Origin: Thermococci archaeon
GTDB lineage: Archaea; Methanobacteriota_B; Thermococci; Thermococcales; Thermococcaceae
Length of the DNA: 25,420 nucleotides
Assembly: GCA_003663525.1 (NCBI GenBank)
Contig: QMUF01000003.1
Span: 1-25,420, forward strand
Reading direction: 5' to 3'
The position numbers and the translations under genes were made by a program. Under the pieces are notes generated by a model. It saw only the letters and a program-made list of their open reading frames with translations. It searched no databases and was not told the origin of the DNA. Below, piece by piece: positions 2,974 to 12,405 of the stretch; the first letter of the stretch is position 1; the number at the start of each line of letters is the position of its first letter.

Positions 2974-3456
2974 TCAAAGGCCAACGCGCATCATCTGACT
3001 ATACATTCCCCAGTTCAGAAGAAGTTCATACTCTGCTCTAAGTGTGTAGTAATGCCCCTTCTCCATATCACTCAAAGAACACATAAGTCTCCTCTTCTCT
3101 TCCGTGTCCGCCATATTTTCTAGTGTTTCATACAATTTGCTTGCTATGTCCTTAGATTTCATTGCCCACCGGACGAGATCAATTATGTCTTGAATTTTCT
3201 CAAGCTTACTTGCAACGGGCTTTAACTCCGGCCCTACTTGCTCTTTGGGAAATATTAGTTCTTCTCCCGGAAATGTTTGAGCATAAAGCTTTCTCAAGAG
3301 TATTTCATGCTTCCTTTCCTCTTCCGCTAAAAATTTAAGTTTCTTTTTGAAGCTTTCCATATCCACATTCGCAGCCATGCTTTTATAAAACTCCCTTACA
3401 CCAATTTCGGCCTTTATGGCCATTTCCAAAAGTTCTTTTAAGGAAAATTCATTCAC
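2974..3456 (-). CDS. Ferritin-like diiron-fold protein, 160 aa
   Basis: The protein has two halves, each with the ferritin-like helix pair. Half one has E17 in LLEMAIKAEIGVREFY and E47/H50 in KFLAEEERKHEILLRKL. Half two has RWAMKSKDIASKLYETL and SLSDMEKGHYYTLRAEYELL. In half two the first ligand position appears to be Asp rather than Glu. There is no rubredoxin domain, so it is not a classical rubrerythrin. I chose the GTG at 3456, just after the stop of the preceding gene; a TTG at 3501 with GGAG upstream would add 15 residues and overlap that gene by 38 bases. It is the last gene of the KaiC/membrane-protein cluster and may sense or detoxify oxidants or handle iron for it. Exact role unknown. 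Confidence 0.75.
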   Translation of the reverse strand: MNEFSLKELLEMAIKAEIGVREFYKSMAANVDMESFKKKLKFLAEEERKHEILLRKLYAQTFPGEELIFPKEQVGPELKPVASKLEKIQDIIDLVRWAMKSKDIASKLYETLENMADTEEKRRLMCSLSDMEKGHYYTLRAEYELLLNWGMYSQMMRVGL

Positions 3457-3463
3457 CTTTTCA

Positions 3464-4072
3464 CTAATGTGAATATAAAAGCTCTTTGTTAAAATCGCCA
3501 AGTCTCTCCACTGCCACGTAATGGAGTCTCACGAGAGTGTAAATCCATAGGATCATGGAAAAGAGGTACACTACCGGAGCGATTTCTCCAACAAAAAGAC
3601 TAAGCCAGATAAATCCCACAAAAGTCCAGGATGATATCTCTGCAAGCCTCTTATACCTTTCAGGGGTTCTAACGTAGCCCGATATGGCATTAATGAGGAG
3701 CACAATAGCTACTGAAGAAGCTAGCTCAACGGTGTAGAAGCTATTCCTTACAAAAATTGCACTTCCAGCTACAATTCCAACCTGTAAGAGCATTGTCCAT
3801 GTTGCCCTAACAAGTCTGCTTTCCGAAAGGGAGTAGGCTATTAAAACAGGCCCCAGAAGAATTGCAAAACTTATAATTGCTTGATGAACTTCAAACATTG
3901 TTGCGATAAAACCGAGTGAAGTCAATATTCCCCCAAAGAGGATATACCAGGAAAGCTTTCTATGCCCTAAAAAGAAGCTCTCAATCTTTCTTGAAAGGTT
4001 CCAAGTAAGGAAAATTCCCGTAAGGGTTAACAATCCGCAGATGCTCATGAGAGTTTGATAAACACTTACCAT
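3464..4072 (-). CDS. Family A polytopic membrane protein (third copy)
   Basis: The 202-residue protein is almost entirely hydrophobic, with about seven predicted membrane helices. It is a paralogue of the products at 4730-5347 and 5904-6563. The best evidence is the shared C-terminal pattern SSWTFVGFIWLSLFV...ILWIYTLV, equivalent to SSWLFVAYSWVRYF...ILWVYSGM in the second copy. The ATG at 4072 was chosen because the product then starts VYQTLMSICGLLTLTGI, matching EYQIIMTLNGALTVLGI at the start of the second copy; a TTG at 4114 is possible. A 93-base gap with a TATA-like sequence precedes it, so it may also have its own promoter. I do not recognise the family. A sensor or scaffold working with the KaiC pair is an inference from position only. 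Confidence 0.72.
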   Translation of the reverse strand: MVSVYQTLMSICGLLTLTGIFLTWNLSRKIESFFLGHRKLSWYILFGGILTSLGFIATMFEVHQAIISFAILLGPVLIAYSLSESRLVRATWTMLLQVGIVAGSAIFVRNSFYTVELASSVAIVLLINAISGYVRTPERYKRLAEISSWTFVGFIWLSLFVGEIAPVVYLFSMILWIYTLVRLHYVAVERLGDFNKELLYSH

Positions 4073-4165
4073 GCTTCCATCGTCCAAGTTTTTACCTTGA
4101 TAGTTAGGAAACAAAGTAAATAAACCTTCCGGTAAATTTTTGCAGATTTTGGAGTATGCTGAAAA

Positions 4166-4729
4166 TCAGTTCCAAGAAAAGCTTCTTTTCTTTATGTTCT
4201 TCAAAACCTCCACTCCCTCAAACATCTGGAGGACTCCAAACAATATCCCGCTGAAGAATGAGAATTCACTAACAAGATAATATCCCATCAGATAGAAGAA
4301 AAAGCTAATGAACAAGAGGAGGGAAGAAATTACCAGAACATCGGTATGAAGCCAGGAAAGTAAGTTATTAAGCTTTACACCCAAGAGTGCGGATAGTGCA
4401 AATAGAAGTGCCATCAATGGAAAAAGCAGTTCAACAGCTGTGAACACAGCATAAACCACAATAACAGCTGAAAAACCGACATACAGCCACATCCATACTC
4501 TAAGTCTGCCAAAGGAAAACACAAGCACAACAAAAAGGAAACTAACTGCTCCTATAAACCCTATAGCGTTTCCAAATTTTGGAAAAGTGAATTCGAGGAC
4601 AGAGGCCAATGCAAACATTGCAGATGACAGATACATTGTATTCTCCTGTGTCCCTTTTACTTTCCATGCCAGCGCTGCACCAAGAATTGAAGCACTAAGG
4701 AGCAGGTAAGAGAGAGCTATACCTATCAT
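4166..4729 (-). CDS. Family B polytopic membrane protein (second copy)
   Basis: This 187-residue protein has about six or seven hydrophobic helices and a short basic tail (VLKNIKKRSFSWN), probably cytosolic. In length, helix spacing and an early acidic helix (SAMFALASVLEFTFPKFGNA) it resembles the product at 5344-5904 (LLFSGASIVEIIFAVNLDVIEF), and the two occupy the same place after a family A gene. The ATG at 4729 directly abuts the TAA of the preceding gene; GGAGATGG lies just upstream. No enzyme motif or known transporter signature is visible. Function is unknown. Tight coupling suggests it forms a complex with its family A neighbour. Confidence 0.7.
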   Translation of the reverse strand: MIGIALSYLLLSASILGAALAWKVKGTQENTMYLSSAMFALASVLEFTFPKFGNAIGFIGAVSFLFVVLVFSFGRLRVWMWLYVGFSAVIVVYAVFTAVELLFPLMALLFALSALLGVKLNNLLSWLHTDVLVISSLLLFISFFFYLMGYYLVSEFSFFSGILFGVLQMFEGVEVLKNIKKRSFSWN

Positions 4730-5347
4730 TTAAAGCCATCTCCTGAGGTAGTCGTATATTCCCATACCAGAGTACACCCAGAGAATTACTGCGGAGGAGT
4801 ATAGGAGAACTATGAGGAAAGACATTCCCTCCAAGGAAGTCCTATTAATGAAGTACCTCACCCAGCTGTAAGCCACAAAAAGCCAAGAGGATATTAGGAG
4901 AGAGTACCTCAAAAAGGGAGGAAGAACTCTCAGCATTAAAAGGGAATGAACCAGGATAAGAAGGGTTAAAAGAACGCCTATGTAGATAAGCTGTGCTGTA
5001 GTATCTGAAAAGCGGGAAACGAGAGATATTGAGGAGAGAATCAAAAGAAACTGGGCAACAAACCTCTTCGTTGGAACAAGAAGTCCAAATGTGCTGAATG
5101 AATAGATCATTACACCCGGCCCGGCAAGGAGGAGAAGCGTGATAACGTTCCTCTCAAACTCACTTGTTGGTTTCATAATGCATAAAAAGCCAATTGAGAT
5201 TAGAATCCCGCCAAAAAGTGGGCCAAAAACGGCATATCTTTTCCCCGAGGTGTAGCTTTCCAATTTATTAAAGATAAGGGTAACATAGGCTATCCCCAAA
5301 ACCGTGAGGGCCCCGTTGAGTGTCATTATAATCTGGTATTCGATCAT
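4730..5347 (-). CDS. Family A polytopic membrane protein (second copy)
   Basis: The product has 205 residues and about seven membrane helices. The ATG at 5347 overlaps the previous stop as ATGA and follows GGTGGATGGG. The C-terminus, ILWVYSGMGIYDYLRRWL, closely parallels LIWVYSTLKTYETLREWL of the first copy, and both share SW-L-x-V-x4-W-x-R-[YF] about 40 residues earlier. This conserved, charged C-terminal tail is probably cytosolic and is a candidate contact for the ATPases of the operon. No catalytic motif is seen. The similarity is modest, so the duplication is old. Confidence 0.75.
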   Translation of the reverse strand: MIEYQIIMTLNGALTVLGIAYVTLIFNKLESYTSGKRYAVFGPLFGGILISIGFLCIMKPTSEFERNVITLLLLAGPGVMIYSFSTFGLLVPTKRFVAQFLLILSSISLVSRFSDTTAQLIYIGVLLTLLILVHSLLMLRVLPPFLRYSLLISSWLFVAYSWVRYFINRTSLEGMSFLIVLLYSSAVILWVYSGMGIYDYLRRWL

Positions 5348-5904
5348 CCCATCCACCAAATCCTTTCCCCAACTGTAAGGAACAGGAACAAAACAGCTCC
5401 GAAATAAAGAAACGCACTGAGAACATTAAATCCCGTCAAAAGTGCTCCAATGCTCAAAAGTGCAAATACGCTCGAAAAGAGCAGGGTATTTCTCGTATCT
5501 TCCCCAAGAATAAACGCATTCTCCCTAAGACTTAAAGCTAAGATAGAAAGAACAACCAGTGTGCCCACGTGGAAGTATTTGAGATCATGGAACGTAAAGA
5601 CAACAAGAAGTGTCAGGGCAACAATTAAGGGAAAGTACTCGTAGTGAATTTTTTTGCCCGTGTTAATTGAGATAAACCTTTCCACAATTAGCAAAATTCC
5701 TAGAATCCCAAAAAACTCAATTACGTCTAAATTAACTGCAAAAATTATCTCCACTATAGATGCCCCACTGAAGAGCAGGCCAAGTAAGAAGGCATAAGGC
5801 CGATGATGTAAGAGAGGGTTCTTTTTCTTTTTTGTGAAAAAGCCAATTATTATGAGAAGGCCAAGTAAAATATCGGGCAGTTCTGAAATTAGAACACATT
5901 CCAT
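5344..5904 (-). CDS. Family B polytopic membrane protein (first copy)
   Basis: This 186-residue membrane protein begins MECVLISELPDILLGLL and has a basic cytosolic loop (FFTKKKKNPLLHHR) after the first helix, followed by about five or six more helices. The ATG at 5904 overlaps the preceding stop as TAATG, with GGGAGTGG upstream; a GTG at 5913 is an alternative start. Its 3' end overlaps the next gene by ATGA. It is similar in size and layout to the product at 4166-4729. No known domain was recognised. Its place inside an overlapping operon argues for a subunit of one membrane complex. Confidence 0.72.
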   Translation of the reverse strand: MECVLISELPDILLGLLIIIGFFTKKKKNPLLHHRPYAFLLGLLFSGASIVEIIFAVNLDVIEFFGILGILLIVERFISINTGKKIHYEYFPLIVALTLLVVFTFHDLKYFHVGTLVVLSILALSLRENAFILGEDTRNTLLFSSVFALLSIGALLTGFNVLSAFLYFGAVLFLFLTVGERIWWMG

Positions 5905-6563
5905 TAGAGCCACTCCCTCAGTGTTTCATAAGTTTTAAGTGTGGAGTATACCCATATAAGCAGGGATATGAAATAAATCAAGAGGACTCCATAGTGGATG
6001 CACGTTTGGGGGTTTTTGAAGGAATAGTAGCGAAGCCATGCATGGAGAACGAGAAGCCACGATGCAATCTTTAGGAGGTTTTTGTTAAAGCGCGAACAAA
6101 CTGCCAAAGAGGAAACAGATTTCATGAGAATGAAAATAGGGAGAGTAATGCCAAAAAGAAGCAATATTACCCCAATTTTTCTCAAAGTGGGAAGTGGAAG
6201 AAACGAATAGATAACAGAAGACGCCAGAATAACAAAAACTTGCACCTTTAACTCTCTATCAATTTTAGTTTGTTTGATTCCTACAAAGAAGGGCAGAACT
6301 ACGAGCAGGCCCCCGATAAGAGCAAAGAGGCTAGAAAGAGTAATAATAGATGAAGACAAAGCACCTTTAGTTGCTCTTATATCGAGCAGTCCTCCAATAA
6401 CCAAAAGCATAATAAGTCCTCCAATTACCTGAAGGGCTTCAAGGGTTCTGTTTTTAATGTATAGGTTAAAAGCGCGAAATACCGAAATAGCAAGAGAAAA
6501 CCCAGACAAGACCATGACTGCAATAGCAAGGCTTAATAGTGTATGCTCATCCAAGGGGCTCAC
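5904..6563 (-). CDS. Family A polytopic membrane protein (first copy)
   Basis: The 219-residue product has about seven predicted membrane helices and ends LREWL. It shares the family A pattern ASWLLVLHAWLRYY (about residues 165-178) and LLIWVYSTLKTYETLREWL (C-terminus) with the two later copies. A cytosolic segment around GIKQTKIDRELKVQVF separates the two halves. The GTG at 6563 overlaps the preceding gene by 17 bases; a TTG at 6554, correctly spaced from GGTGAG, is an equally good start. Coupling to the P-loop-less RecA-fold gene upstream suggests these products meet at the membrane. Function unknown. Confidence 0.72.
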   Translation of the reverse strand: MSPLDEHTLLSLAIAVMVLSGFSLAISVFRAFNLYIKNRTLEALQVIGGLIMLLVIGGLLDIRATKGALSSSIITLSSLFALIGGLLVVLPFFVGIKQTKIDRELKVQVFVILASSVIYSFLPLPTLRKIGVILLLFGITLPIFILMKSVSSLAVCSRFNKNLLKIASWLLVLHAWLRYYSFKNPQTCIHYGVLLIYFISLLIWVYSTLKTYETLREWL

Positions 6564-7146
6564 CTACGATAATTTCCTTATTCAGTTCAAGCTTGTAAAA
6601 CCCCGTAACCCCATAGGGAGACTTCTTAATTCGTATCCCCCTCGTTATTTTAAACCCATCAACGACCTCAACTATATCTATAACATGCGTTGCAGACTCC
6701 TCGAAGATGGCAAGAGTCTTGTCATCAAGCAATCTCTTATCCACCATCGACATCAAAATAAAACCACGTTCGAGAGCCATATTAGCTAATTCAGAGAAGA
6801 AGCGCTGAACGGTTTCAGATGGATGGAAAACAAGAAGAGGCTGGAGGAAGAATATACCAACGAAACGATCTTCTGGAACTTCTCTCATTGCATGGGTTAT
6901 TTTAAAAAGCTCCTGCGGAGCAAAATCCTCCCCCAAGGTAAAGTAAATAACCCCATCAATGCCCTCTATCTTCTTAAGTCTCCTTTTAAGGCGAGGCGTT
7001 ACAAAGACGACGGCTTTCTCTTTATTTTCTTTCAGAACAGCTAAGACTATCTCTATCCCAAGCTCTCCGATGGTGGAGATTAAAACCGTACTCCCCGGTT
7101 CAATTTTCCCGAGGAGCTCGTCGAGCTTGGGGATGCCGAGCCTCAT
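6547..7146 (-). CDS. RecA/KaiC-fold protein lacking the P-loop (pseudo-ATPase)
   Basis: The 199-residue protein starts MRLGIPKLDELLGKIEPGS, the same opening as KaiC/RadA-like ATPases (G-[IV]-x-x-LD-x-LL-GG-x-I-x-x-G). The next segment, residues 24-31 STIGELGI, stands where the partner at 7149-7853 has GGPGAGKT, so the Walker A lysine and threonine are missing. The Walker B region reads FVGIFFLQPLLVF without the final Asp. The rest keeps the strand/helix order and the end ITRGIRIKKS, comparable to LRGIKIIKFRG in the partner. It cannot be a normal ATPase and is probably a structural or regulatory partner. It starts 2 bases after the stop of the active ATPase gene and overlaps the first membrane-protein gene. 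Confidence 0.82.
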   Translation of the reverse strand: MRLGIPKLDELLGKIEPGSTVLISTIGELGIEIVLAVLKENKEKAVVFVTPRLKRRLKKIEGIDGVIYFTLGEDFAPQELFKITHAMREVPEDRFVGIFFLQPLLVFHPSETVQRFFSELANMALERGFILMSMVDKRLLDDKTLAIFEESATHVIDIVEVVDGFKITRGIRIKKSPYGVTGFYKLELNKEIIVGEPLG

Positions 7147-7148
7147 AC

Positions 7149-7853
7149 TTAGACCCCATGAAACAGAACTTCTTGGTGATAAACTTTAATACCTTTACTG
7201 GTTATTCTGTAAGGCCTGAGCTCCTCATCGAAGGTGCTTCCTCTAAACTTTATTATCTTAATACCTCTAAGAGTCTTTCCCCGTTCCTCAATTACTCTCA
7301 GCTCGATAACCCCACTCACAAGGTATTCTTCAATGTCACTATCCATGAGCTCTGAGGTAAAGAGGATTGTAGCTTTATACTTGGATATTGTCTTCAGAAA
7401 GGTCATAAAAGTCCTTCTGTACTCAAGCTCATCTAGAATCGTGAGCTTAATCATTGTTAGGGGATCTATAACTATCCTTGAGTACTTTTCAGCCTTGATC
7501 TCTTCGCTTATTGTCCTTGCAAGCTTCTCAAAGCTAGTTGCAAACTCCTCATAGAGGACATCAGCAAAGATCATCTTTTTCTCTCCCACTGGTGTTGCAT
7601 CCACAATTTTTATGTTGGGATGATCCAGATTGAAGCCAAATTTACTCATATCTTCTTTGAGGGTTGAGAGGGGTTCTTCAAAAGTGATATACAAACCTTT
7701 TTCCTTGTTTTTGATCCCTTCCACCAAAAAGTGCATTGCAAGAGTAGTTTTGCCCGCCCCAGGGCCTCCTTTTACAAGATACGCCCTTCCGGGGATGAGG
7801 CCGCCATTAAGCATTTTATCAAGGCCTTCCACCCCTGTTGAGATCCTCACCAT
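7149..7853 (-). CDS. Single-domain KaiC/RadA-like ATPase
   Basis: The 234-residue protein is one RecA-type domain. Walker A is GGPGAGKT (residues 29-36), the catalytic Glu pair is E59/E60 in YITFEEP, and Walker B is RIVID with D130. The C-terminal LRGIKIIKFRG...YRITSKGIKVY is typical of KaiC-like proteins. In archaea, KaiC-like ATPases have been proposed to act as signalling hubs that link sensors to partner proteins. The ATG at 7853 is preceded by GGTGAG; a GTG at 7862 is possible. It is the first gene of a run of overlapping genes that continues with a P-loop-less paralogue and five membrane proteins. Its promoter and a dyad lie just upstream. Partner and output are unknown. Confidence 0.92.
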   Translation of the reverse strand: MVRISTGVEGLDKMLNGGLIPGRAYLVKGGPGAGKTTLAMHFLVEGIKNKEKGLYITFEEPLSTLKEDMSKFGFNLDHPNIKIVDATPVGEKKMIFADVLYEEFATSFEKLARTISEEIKAEKYSRIVIDPLTMIKLTILDELEYRRTFMTFLKTISKYKATILFTSELMDSDIEEYLVSGVIELRVIEERGKTLRGIKIIKFRGSTFDEELRPYRITSKGIKVYHQEVLFHGV

Positions 7854-7868
7854 GTTACTCACCGCTGT

Positions 7869-7884
7869 AGAGTAATCCTACTCT
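7869..7884. promoter_or_regulatory. Dyad AGAGTA-N4-TACTCT at the KaiC operon start
   Basis: A perfect 6-bp inverted repeat with a 4-bp spacer (ATCC) lies between the TATA box and the ATG at 7853, over or next to the predicted transcription start. This is the usual place for an archaeal repressor site. Confidence 0.5.
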
Positions 7885-7888
7885 CATC

Positions 7889-7898
7889 ATTATAAAGT
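7889..7898 (-). promoter_or_regulatory. TATA box of the KaiC/membrane-protein operon
   Basis: The minus strand reads ACTTTATAAT. It predicts initiation near 7867, leaving a leader of about 14 bases with GGTGAG before the ATG at 7853. Confidence 0.6.
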
Positions 7899-7992
7899 TT
7901 GTCATTAAAATTATTGTCTCGCCGCTATGGTCTCACTCTTAAAACTTTTTTGCCAGAACAGAATCCCACCAGAAAAGAAAATTATAAAAGAA

Positions 7993-8340
7993 TCACTCAA
8001 GCTGAACCTCGTTCTCCCAGAGGCCATGGATGTTGCAGTAGCTTAAGGCATAAAGTTTGCCTTTTTTGCTTGTCCTAAAGAAGAACTTAGCTATTGGCTC
8101 TGTTAATGGTTCTCCATGGTTTGCAAACTCAGCTCTGCCAATAAGTATTGGAAAGTTTTCTCCTTCTGGATGGAAATAAACTTCAATCCAAGCTATGTGG
8201 TGCTCTGGTGTGTTAGGATGGGAGATTTCTTTACCAACTTGAACTTTTATTTTTATTAGTTCTCCTTCCTTCTTGTATTCTATAGCGGGGATGTGTTTTT
8301 CTCCTTTCCAGTCCCCACTTCTTATAGTTCCACTAATCAT
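7993..8340 (-). CDS. sorA: Superoxide reductase
   Basis: The 115-residue protein is a one-iron superoxide reductase that reduces superoxide to hydrogen peroxide with electrons from rubredoxin. The centre-II ligands are all present: H16 in GEKHIP (with E14 and K15), H41 and H47 in ISHPNTPEHH, and C102/H105 in YCNIHGLWENE. The ATG at 8340 follows GAGGTGATTGAAA and gives the family start MISGTIRSGDWKGEKH. Compared with my memory of the P. furiosus enzyme (about 124 residues), a loop of about nine residues is missing after HGEP, away from the iron site. It lies 11 bases after rubredoxin, its electron donor, and is followed by a T-rich terminator region. Confidence 0.97.
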   Translation of the reverse strand: MISGTIRSGDWKGEKHIPAIEYKKEGELIKIKVQVGKEISHPNTPEHHIAWIEVYFHPEGENFPILIGRAEFANHGEPLTEPIAKFFFRTSKKGKLYALSYCNIHGLWENEVQLE

Positions 8341-8351
8341 TTTCAATCACC

Positions 8352-8516
8352 TCAATCCTCTATCCTCTCAAACATATCTTTTGGAGCCCCACAAAGCGGG
8401 CATACCCAATCATCCGGAATTTCCTCAAACTTCGTTCCTGGATTAATTCCACTATCTGGATCTCCTGTTTCCTCATCGTATATATACCCACATACTATAC
8501 ATTTCCACTTTGCCAT
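8352..8516 (-). CDS. Rubredoxin
   Basis: This 54-residue cytosolic electron carrier has one iron held by four cysteines in two CxxCG knuckles: [15 protein letters not shown] and [12 protein letters not shown]. The ATG at 8516 follows GGTGG and gives the typical start [19 protein letters not shown]. It passes electrons to the superoxide reductase encoded just downstream and to rubrerythrin encoded just upstream. The 77-base gap before it holds a T-run, a weak TATA-like CTATTTAG and a dyad, so it may have its own promoter as well as read-through from rubrerythrin. Confidence 0.97.
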
Positions 8517-8553
8517 GTTTCCACCACTCAATATTATTAGATCGACCTTAGAA

Positions 8554-8570
8554 AGTTTGTGCTCCAAACT
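8554..8570. promoter_or_regulatory. Dyad AGTTTG-N5-CAAACT upstream of rubredoxin
   Basis: A perfect 6-bp inverted repeat with a 5-bp spacer lies 38-54 bases upstream of the rubredoxin ATG and touches a TATA-like CTATTTAG (minus strand, ~8569-8576). The half-sites resemble GTTT/AAAC, the halves of the SurR redox-regulator site, but the spacer is longer than the usual three bases. It is an operator candidate only. Confidence 0.4.
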
Positions 8571-8593
8571 AAATAGAGCAAAAAACGAAAGAG

Positions 8594-9109
8594 CTATTCA
8601 AAAACTACAAACTTCTCTCTTGAAGCCCCGCACACTGGACAATACTCAGGAGCCTCATCTATAACCGTGTATCCGCATATTGGACATATGTAGACCCTCT
8701 TTATTTCAAGATCCTTTTTCTGTTCCGCCAGTTCTTTGGCTTCCTTGTAAAGCTCTGCATGAATTTTTTCTGCCTCTAAGGCATAATGAGTACTCCTCAC
8801 AGCCTCTTTCTCACCCTGGAGCTCAGCAGTTGCTTTGTAAACTGGATACATTTCTTCGACTTCAAAAGTCTCCCCATCTATTGCTACCTGAAGGTTGCTA
8901 GGAGTGTCCTTAATATTGCCAAGTGCTTGATAATGATTTTTAGCATGTACAAGCTCAGCAAAAGCTATTGCTCTAAAGAGCTTTGCTATATTAGGAAATC
9001 CTTCCCTTTCAGCAACATCCGCAAAAATTAGATATCTCGTATGCGCTTGGCTTTCTCCTGCATATGCATCTTCAAGAAACTTCTTCGTCATTTTTCTTTC
9101 GACTACCAT
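8594..9109 (-). CDS. Rubrerythrin (peroxide reductase)
   Basis: The 171-residue protein has an N-terminal four-helix diiron domain (E19 in [21 protein letters not shown], then [15 protein letters not shown]) and a C-terminal rubredoxin-like iron site, [20 protein letters not shown]. Rubrerythrin reduces hydrogen peroxide to water with electrons from rubredoxin, completing the superoxide reductase pathway. The ATG at 9109 follows GGGTGGTAGCT and matches the family start [20 protein letters not shown]; a GTG at 9118 is less likely. A good promoter lies at 9151-9158. It is the first intact gene of the rubrerythrin-rubredoxin-superoxide reductase unit. Confidence 0.97.
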
Positions 9110-9150
9110 AGCTACCACCCCAAAACGACATTATTAATTCGATAGAGAAA

Positions 9151-11377: not shown

Positions 11378-12405
11378 TCACCTGTCTATATCGGGTGGAC
11401 AGTTCCCTAAGGTCATCAATATAACTGGCACGTCTGCTATTCTAGCCCCTACCAAAAGCTGTTCTATTACCCTGATTCCATGGGATATGCTTGGACCTCT
11501 TATCTGGACTCTGTAAGGCTTGTTTCCTCCATCGCTTACAACATAGGCTCCAAAATCTCCATTAGGAGCTTCTACATGAGCATAAGCATCTCCTGCAGGA
11601 ACCTTGAATCTTGGATCTTCAACTTTGTATGGGCCATCTGGCGGACCCATTTCAAGGAGTTATTCGAGGATGTAAAGATCCCGTTCAATTTCAAATCTCC
11701 TCACAAGCATTCTGGCCAAAGAGTCGCCTTCTTTGAGAACAGGTACTTCAAAATCAAGCTCTGGGTAGAGTAAATAGGGATATAATCTCCTTACATCTGC
11801 TTTTACTCCTACAGCCCTTAAGTTTGGGCCGGTAACACCTTCTGCTAAAGCAAACTTTTTGTCCATTACTCCAATCCCTTCAAGCCTGTTGTAAGTAATG
11901 TAATTCCCAAATAAGATGTTGTCAAAGTCTGAAAGTTTATCTCCCTGTTGCTTGCAAGACCCCTTCCGTAAGGGGGGTAGTTCACTCTTAACATATTCCA
12001 CAGTATCTTTGAGCTCCCTTAACCACTTGTCCCTAGGGATATCCCCTCTAACTCCACCAGGAATTGTATAAATATGGTAAACCCTCGCCCCAGTAAGCTG
12101 TTCAAAGAGTGCCATAAACCTCTCTCTATAAGCAGCGGCCCATTGTCCAGAATAGGTACGAAGTAACTCTGGCCATCTCAAGAACAACCCTGATCCATTG
12201 AGCTCTTTCTGGAACTTCCCATCCCATAAGCTCATCAACAGCCATGGAATAAATACCCTCTGGAACATCAGGCTCTGGGGCACAGATTCTAAGTAGGAGT
12301 GCTATGTTTGTGTACCATGGTCTTAGCTCGGCAAGTTTCTCAAATCCCCTGTGAAGAAAGCCTGGGTTAGCTATGACCTTAACAACTCTATGCCCATCCA
12401 GTTTA
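11378..12405 (-). pseudogene. mbxL: Mbx-type large subunit (MbxL/NuoD-like), decayed and 5' truncated
   Basis: Three lesions are visible. (1) The homology starts only at about LKLDGHRVVKVIANPGFLHRG (~12400); upstream lies antisense transposase sequence. (2) Near 12139-12150, SYLFWTMG runs out of frame into GQWAAAYRERFMALFEQL; both share the bases GGACAATGGG, so roughly ten codons appear deleted between short direct repeats, shifting the frame. (3) A TAA at 11660-11662 interrupts RDLYILE-stop-LLEMGPPDGPYK in frame, one change from CAA. The protein ends LGNCPPDIDR, keeping one Cys of the usual C-terminal Cys pair; near the N-terminus RICAPEPD likewise keeps one. This fits the Mbx rather than the true hydrogenase type. 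The upstream mbx genes are absent. Confidence 0.85.
11951..11975. repeat. Palindrome and hairpin inside the decayed mbxL
   Basis: CTTGCAAG (11951-11958) is followed by a perfect 6-bp stem CCCCTT-CCGT-AAGGGG (11960-11975). It lies in a segment reading PLRKGSCKQQGDKLSD that seems extra between VKSELP and FDNILFGNYITYNRL, in frame. It may be a small insertion or element scar. Confidence 0.4.

Follow-up and report, generated by a model that had tools for sequence, protein, structure and literature searches.

The window analysed here, a stretch of 25,420 nucleotides (nt) from a Thermococci archaeon (GenBank assembly GCA_003663525.1, contig QMUF01000003.1, positions 1 to 25,420; contig C3 of a draft genome that is 82.8% complete), carries seven minus-strand open reading frames (ORFs) spanning 3464-7862. 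A sequence-only reading had taken them for a single operon encoding an active KaiC-like ATPase (here KC), its dead RecA-fold partner (DP) and five membrane proteins of two families in the order A-B-A-B-A. The seven ORFs are present, but a single operon of seven is not borne out: the conserved unit is a four-gene cassette, KC-DP-A-B. Tentatively, and at somewhat short of an even chance, we read this cassette as a membrane sensing module made up of an A-B pair, an adaptor, DP, and an ATP-driven switch, KC. In the window the seven genes are the following.

KC, 7149..7862, minus strand: single-domain KaiC-like ATPase, active as judged by its motifs (PF06745, 174.6 bits)
DP, 6547..7146, minus strand: DUF835-like protein without a P-loop
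A1, 5904..6563, minus strand: predicted seven-helix membrane protein of the cassette type, with a loop-6 cysteine and a C-terminal REWL
B1, 5344..5913, minus strand: predicted seven-helix membrane protein with an N-terminal cysteine, Cys6
A2, 4730..5359, minus strand: second A protein, from a pair without the cysteines
B2, 4166..4729, minus strand: second B protein, from the same cysteine-less pair
A3, 3464..4114, minus strand: A-type protein resident at this site, probably transcribed on its own

KC and DP are 2 nt apart, DP and A1 overlap by 17 nt, A1 and B1 by 10 nt, and B1 and A2 by 16 nt if the longest ORF is taken. A2 and B2 abut with a gap of 0, and A3 follows B2 after 51 nt if it starts with the TTG at 4114 or after 93 nt if it starts with the ATG at 4072, the latter being the likelier start. 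By blastp, A1, A2 and A3 are mutually homologous (expect value, E, 1e-7 to 2e-20), as are B1 and B2 (E 1e-8).

A search with DP gave a match in 40 of the 94 genomes of the order Thermococcales at E up to 1e-3, while the DP profile at E up to 1e-20 marked out 35 places in 34 of these genomes, clear of the rest, and none among 21 further genomes of the phylum. These 35 loci, the window included, make up our locus set, which, having been gathered through DP, is silent on the frequency of KC or A without DP. At 34 of them the gene directly upstream of DP is KC, L049 being the exception; a few of these KC genes are broken or cut by a contig end, and one locus, L077, is a fragment. DP is followed by A and B at 24 of the 35 loci, in 23 genomes (G047 has two), and KC is also present at 23 of the 24; L077 is left out of the split between these 24 loci and the 10 with KC-DP only, and a DP-A fusion at L059 is left out of the A profile behind the counts. 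The junctions are largely uniform, DP and A sharing exactly 17 nt at 20 of 24 junctions and A and B exactly 10 nt at 22 of 26, with a GTG start in 20/20 A and 23/24 B genes among those that begin at profile position 1. Taken together, the KC-DP adjacency, the recurrence of DP-A-B and the fixed overlaps argue that the linkage of the four genes is beyond chance. The gene order recurs in other genomes, so that the sequence-only reading is not refuted on that count. B turned up only at cassette loci (23 matches in 20 of the 94 genomes, the same 20 among 115 in the phylum, with three more cassette loci under a broader B profile). A is more widespread than the cassette, occurring in 61 of the 94 genomes.

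A few loci deserve separate mention. At L049 (59-2032), the sole DP-A-B locus without KC, the preceding gene is one we take to be P-type-ATPase-like, and the genome holds a complete cassette elsewhere. The DP-A fusion of 407 residues in G028 (L059) was set aside, since KC there is split over several frames and decay or sequence error is as likely an explanation. At L065 (9514-10735), a repeated translated motif resembling a CRISPR (clustered regularly interspaced short palindromic repeats) array lies beside a KC-DP pair without A-B.

KC passes the Pfam KaiC/ATPase family PF06745 with its 174.6 bits against a cut-off of 26.6. Walker A is present in all 29 near-full-length KC sequences and the EE pattern of the catalytic glutamate pair in 27 of them, the window KC having both, so that the description of an active KaiC-like ATPase holds as far as family and motifs can tell. 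KC is neither the circadian KaiC, being a single domain of 237 residues that scores 78.2 of 546 bits with TIGR02655 and 128.5 of 408 with PRK09302, nor ArlH (37.4 bits against an NCBIfam equivalog cut-off of 215). A paralogue 48-60% identical to KC stands alone at 15 of 15 sampled loci (L158-L172), without DP, A or B alongside.

Walker A is absent from 34 of 34 near-full-length DP sequences, in agreement with the dead partner first proposed. The window DP falls below the cut-off of DUF835 (PF05763; 15.9 against 33.1 bits); DUF835 nevertheless matches 10 of 12 DP members at E up to 0.5, the best at 5.1e-6, and hhalign of the DP profile with DUF835 proteins gives E 2.6e-6 at a probability of 89%. 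The excerpt of PMC5847659 used here lists DUF835 as an inactivated KaiC. There are 7-14 DUF835 matches per genome in each of the 10 genomes sampled. Among 20 long DUF835 proteins, one of which was not recovered (wrong ORF), the N-terminal hydrophobic segments number seven in 12, six in 5 and five in 2; an earlier sampling had returned an ORF from 18 of 30 loci, four of them wrong short ones. In all eight long proteins scanned, DUF835 is C-terminal and the N-terminal seven-helix-like part reaches no Pfam cut-off (L138-L157).

The membrane proteins of two families described earlier are also present. Neither A nor B reaches the cut-off of any Pfam or NCBIfam family, those of transporters and polysaccharide systems included, and since hhalign of A against B gave nothing we treat them as separate families (A2 and B1 give a blastp E of 0.001 with composition correction off). 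AlphaFold2 builds seven helices for A2 (predicted local distance difference test, pLDDT, 79.5; predicted template modelling score, pTM, 0.74; 9-row alignment) and for B1 (pLDDT 73.8, pTM 0.73; 7-row alignment). By the positive-inside rule, with positive loops 1 and 3, A is predicted to be N-out/C-in, and B is predicted to have a similar topology, with a weaker signal. Across all 50 aligned A proteins, G, L, Q, W and Y are the sole residues at positions conserved to at least 80%; B has two conserved acidic residues, E66 near transmembrane helix 3 (88%) and E183 (96%); and in neither family is a histidine or a second cysteine conserved at the 80% level. The C-terminal R-W-L of cassette A was considered as a docking signal and rejected, as the W-L falls within the stretch that A shares with B, where the start of B may dictate it; A2 retains the motif without an overlap, at no more than two related loci. 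In the same way, the end of DP may dictate the acidic N-terminus of A.

These features bear on the idea that A and B make up a transporter, or a pore for secretion, powered or gated by a KC-DP ATPase. RecA-fold ATPases can perform mechanical work, several polytopic proteins share a unit with an ATPase here, and the acidic residues of B could be read in this sense. Set against this are the lack of any transporter family at cut-off for A or B and the restriction of the conserved positions of A to the five residues named above, as well as the presentation of KaiC-type proteins as regulators in the excerpt of PMC4858521. We regard such a pore as unlikely, and as less likely than a sensor.

An A-B partnership is suggested by two cysteines. 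Of the 26 A-B pairs, 25 were scored, L055 being excluded for its broken A. The loop-6 cysteine of A and Cys6 of B occur together in 21 of these pairs, are jointly missing from 4 and are mismatched in none. The pattern is striking, but the cysteine states change only about twice per protein on the tree, which is not enough for a statistical test. Among A proteins that do not belong to an A-B pair, 0 of 25 carry the loop-6 cysteine; five of these sit at cassette loci and 20 at solo loci, the latter being a sample of the solo A places listed. Both cysteines are predicted to be extracytoplasmic, and A and B are probably joined by a disulfide between them on the outside of the cell, as judged from the sequences.

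We favour the sensing module on the predicted seven-transmembrane (7TM) N-out/C-in topology, the kinship of DP to the DUF835 that these genomes also encode fused to seven-helix domains, and the predicted A-B disulfide. Of the two options offered by the sequence-only reading, membrane sensor or secretion/transport, it is thus the former that gains, nothing specific for the latter having emerged. In such a module A and B would pair, mostly held by a disulfide between the extracytoplasmic loop 6 of A and the N-terminus of B; DP, by analogy with the 7TM-DUF835 fusions, would bind the cytoplasmic face of the pair and couple it to KC; and KC, like other archaeal KaiC-type switches, would hydrolyse ATP and change its state or partners upon the signal.

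What the signal might be is hinted at by the neighbourhood, as most cassettes lie beside superoxide reductase or rubrerythrin genes. A rubrerythrin-family gene, found with a purpose-built profile, lies within 6 kb of 15 of the 24 cassettes, which between them cover five of the six genera searched; none of the 10 KC-DP-only loci, two of which have short flanks, has such a neighbour. The eight genomes sampled have 8-16 matches to the family each, many of them clustered. An oxidant or the redox state could therefore be what is sensed, with perhaps a tie to oxidative stress, a step further and weaker than the reading of receptor, adaptor and switch. The same neighbours, together with the paired extracytoplasmic cysteines, could instead point to A and B as redox membrane enzymes, performing electron transfer or thiol exchange for the rubrerythrin/superoxide reductase pathway under the regulation of KC-DP. 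That neither A nor B conserves a histidine or a further cysteine to 80%, and that 4 of 25 pairs are without the pairing cysteines, makes this the least probable of the alternatives considered here.

Several observations also weigh against the sensing module itself. Besides the small number of cysteine changes on the tree, four pairs have neither cysteine (L049, L068, A2-B2 of the window and A2-B2 of L045). The parts of the module occur separately, with KC-DP without A-B at 10 loci and DP-A-B without KC at L049. The link of DP to KaiC is weak, the DP profile giving only E 0.0018 and a probability of 15% with KC by hhalign, and small DP and KC alignments E 0.015. Nor is there a significant structural match for A or B (best Foldseek E 0.14 and 0.34, respectively), or a significant similarity to the 7TM part of the DUF835 proteins (hhalign E 0.012 for A and 0.045 for B; best hmmsearch 0.0028). 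As for the redox signal, no rubrerythrin-family gene lies within 6 kb of 9 of the 24 cassettes, five of which have short flanks, as do two of the 10 KC-DP-only loci, and the 15 linked cassettes may all descend from one ancestral linkage.

Of the seven genes, A2, B2 and A3 lie outside the conserved cassette. The promoter-like elements and the neighbours of the seven are these.

ACAAACTTTATAATG, 7888..7902, minus strand, upstream of KC: candidate promoter element, which we take to be TATA-type
CCGGAAGGTTTATTTA, 4117..4132, minus strand, upstream of A3: candidate promoter element, presumably BRE/TATA-type (BRE, transcription factor B recognition element)
Genes we take to encode superoxide reductase, rubredoxin and rubrerythrin, 7993..9118, minus strand: context upstream of KC
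Rubrerythrin-family gene, 2974..3501, minus strand: context downstream (PF02915, 91.5 bits)

Relatives without the cassette at this site have, in order, superoxide reductase, A3, the rubrerythrin-family gene and a zinc transporter. A conserved block ahead of A3, which we assume to be of BRE/TATA type, is present with small changes at 13 of 14 loci, whether or not they have the cassette, and absent in G083. Given this promoter-like block of its own and its presence without the cassette, A3 is best seen as a separate gene. In G079 and one of two G082 contigs, a scar upstream of A3, translated GVEILKSIKKRSFSWK, is the counterpart of the end of the window B2, GVEVLKNIKKRSFSWN, which argues that a deletion removed the cassette there; the two scars are near-identical and may be one event. 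An origin of the window block by insertion between superoxide reductase and A3 was accordingly rejected. G083 retains the first part of A2, then A3. Weak matches to parts of an A gene at G081:C1:3315-3590 and 11797-11922, at E 6e-4 and 8e-4, of which one contains a stop, are perhaps a decayed copy. In the tree of A proteins, A3 groups with solo A and A2 falls on that side at a support of 0.62 only, while a tree built from A-B pairs, without solo A, places A2-B2 beside the DP-A-B of G047:C47, whose A is 54% identical to A2. On the evidence of the cassette-free A3, the scars, the promoter-like block and the trees, the seven genes comprise a cassette, KC-DP-A1-B1, an additional A2-B2 pair, of unsettled origin, and A3 as a resident gene. 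What is conserved is therefore not the A-B-A-B-A complex, nor is the operon of seven borne out.

The rates of change differ among these parts. Between the window and G075, nonsynonymous divergence (dN) is 0.28 for A1 and 0.16 for B1 as against 0.07 for KC and 0.06 for DP, at a similar synonymous divergence (dS) of 0.74-0.87, while A2, B2 and A3 are slower than A1 and B1, at 0.09-0.10; between G030 and G042 there is no such contrast (dN 0.12 for both A1 and KC). Faster membrane proteins, patchy presence and loss with scars would suit a conflict or stress effector module, in which the fast-changing proteins act on the membrane under the control of KC-DP. That A2, B2 and A3 are not accelerated, nor A1 and B1 in G030-G042, speaks against it, as do the lack of a PADLOC match for A, B and DP at E up to 0.01 (KC has weak ATPase matches only, the best at 1.2e-5) and the absence of viral or plasmid relatives among those found for DP; we consider this quite improbable. 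A phage or plasmid origin was likewise rejected, there being no DP relatives there and no PHROGs match for five proteins. Compared with G083, its closest relative, the window has a dS of 0.03 in DP and 0.69 in A1, a mosaic that suggests recombination. Across A1-B1 (window 5344-6563, L044 4473-5677) dS is about 0.7, with DP nearly identical, and after A3 in G083 there are split frames that we take to be transposon-type and TnpB-like (L044 6780-7906).

KaiC-like proteins have been proposed as major archaeal signalling hubs, and to our knowledge the inputs into them from outside the cell are largely open. The cassette brings together genes for candidate receptors, an adaptor and an ATPase, and carries a sharp prediction, one A-B disulfide. 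No description of it was found in the open-licence literature searched; an earlier mention in the mBio 2017 KaiC survey is possible. According to the excerpt of PMC5847659, most Pyrococcus and Thermococcus species have a single, chemotactic histidine kinase, so that the cassette, as a sensing system, would fill a gap. That it represents an archaeal receptor class of its own, in which a disulfide-linked 7TM heterodimer reads an oxidant or the redox state on the outside of the cell and passes the signal, by way of a DUF835-type adaptor, to a KaiC-type ATPase, seems to us doubtful; if true, a pair of 7TM receptor and nucleotide switch would have evolved apart from both the G-protein-coupled receptor (GPCR)/G-protein and the histidine-kinase systems.

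Among known systems, the structure searches gave no significant match that would tie A or B to 7TM bundles of the GPCR type, and the retinal-binding lysine in transmembrane helix 7 (TM7) of microbial rhodopsins has no conserved counterpart in them, there being no lysine among the 80% columns and only 0.0 lysines plus arginines in TM7 per B sequence and 0.4 per cassette A sequence. KC itself is a typical single-domain member of the archaeal KaiC-like ATPases (PF06745), and having an inactivated KaiC-like protein as its partner is in keeping with the signalling hubs proposed for that group in the excerpt of PMC5847659. Unlike the hubs described, the cassette is a stable set of four genes with two 7TM families and fixed overlaps. 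ArlH/FlaH of the archaellum is alike in being a KaiC-like ATP-binding protein linked to a membrane machine, but KC lies far below the ArlH cut-off (37 against 215 bits). The 7TM-DUF835 proteins (PF05763) found in these genomes likewise consist of a seven-helix part and one of DUF835 type, DP being DUF835-like. The cassette differs in having its 7TM parts separate, two per cassette and without significant similarity to the fused ones, in a DP that stays under the Pfam cut-off, and in the addition of an active KaiC partner. If the sensor reading is true, these fused proteins would be candidates for one-piece counterparts of the cassette.

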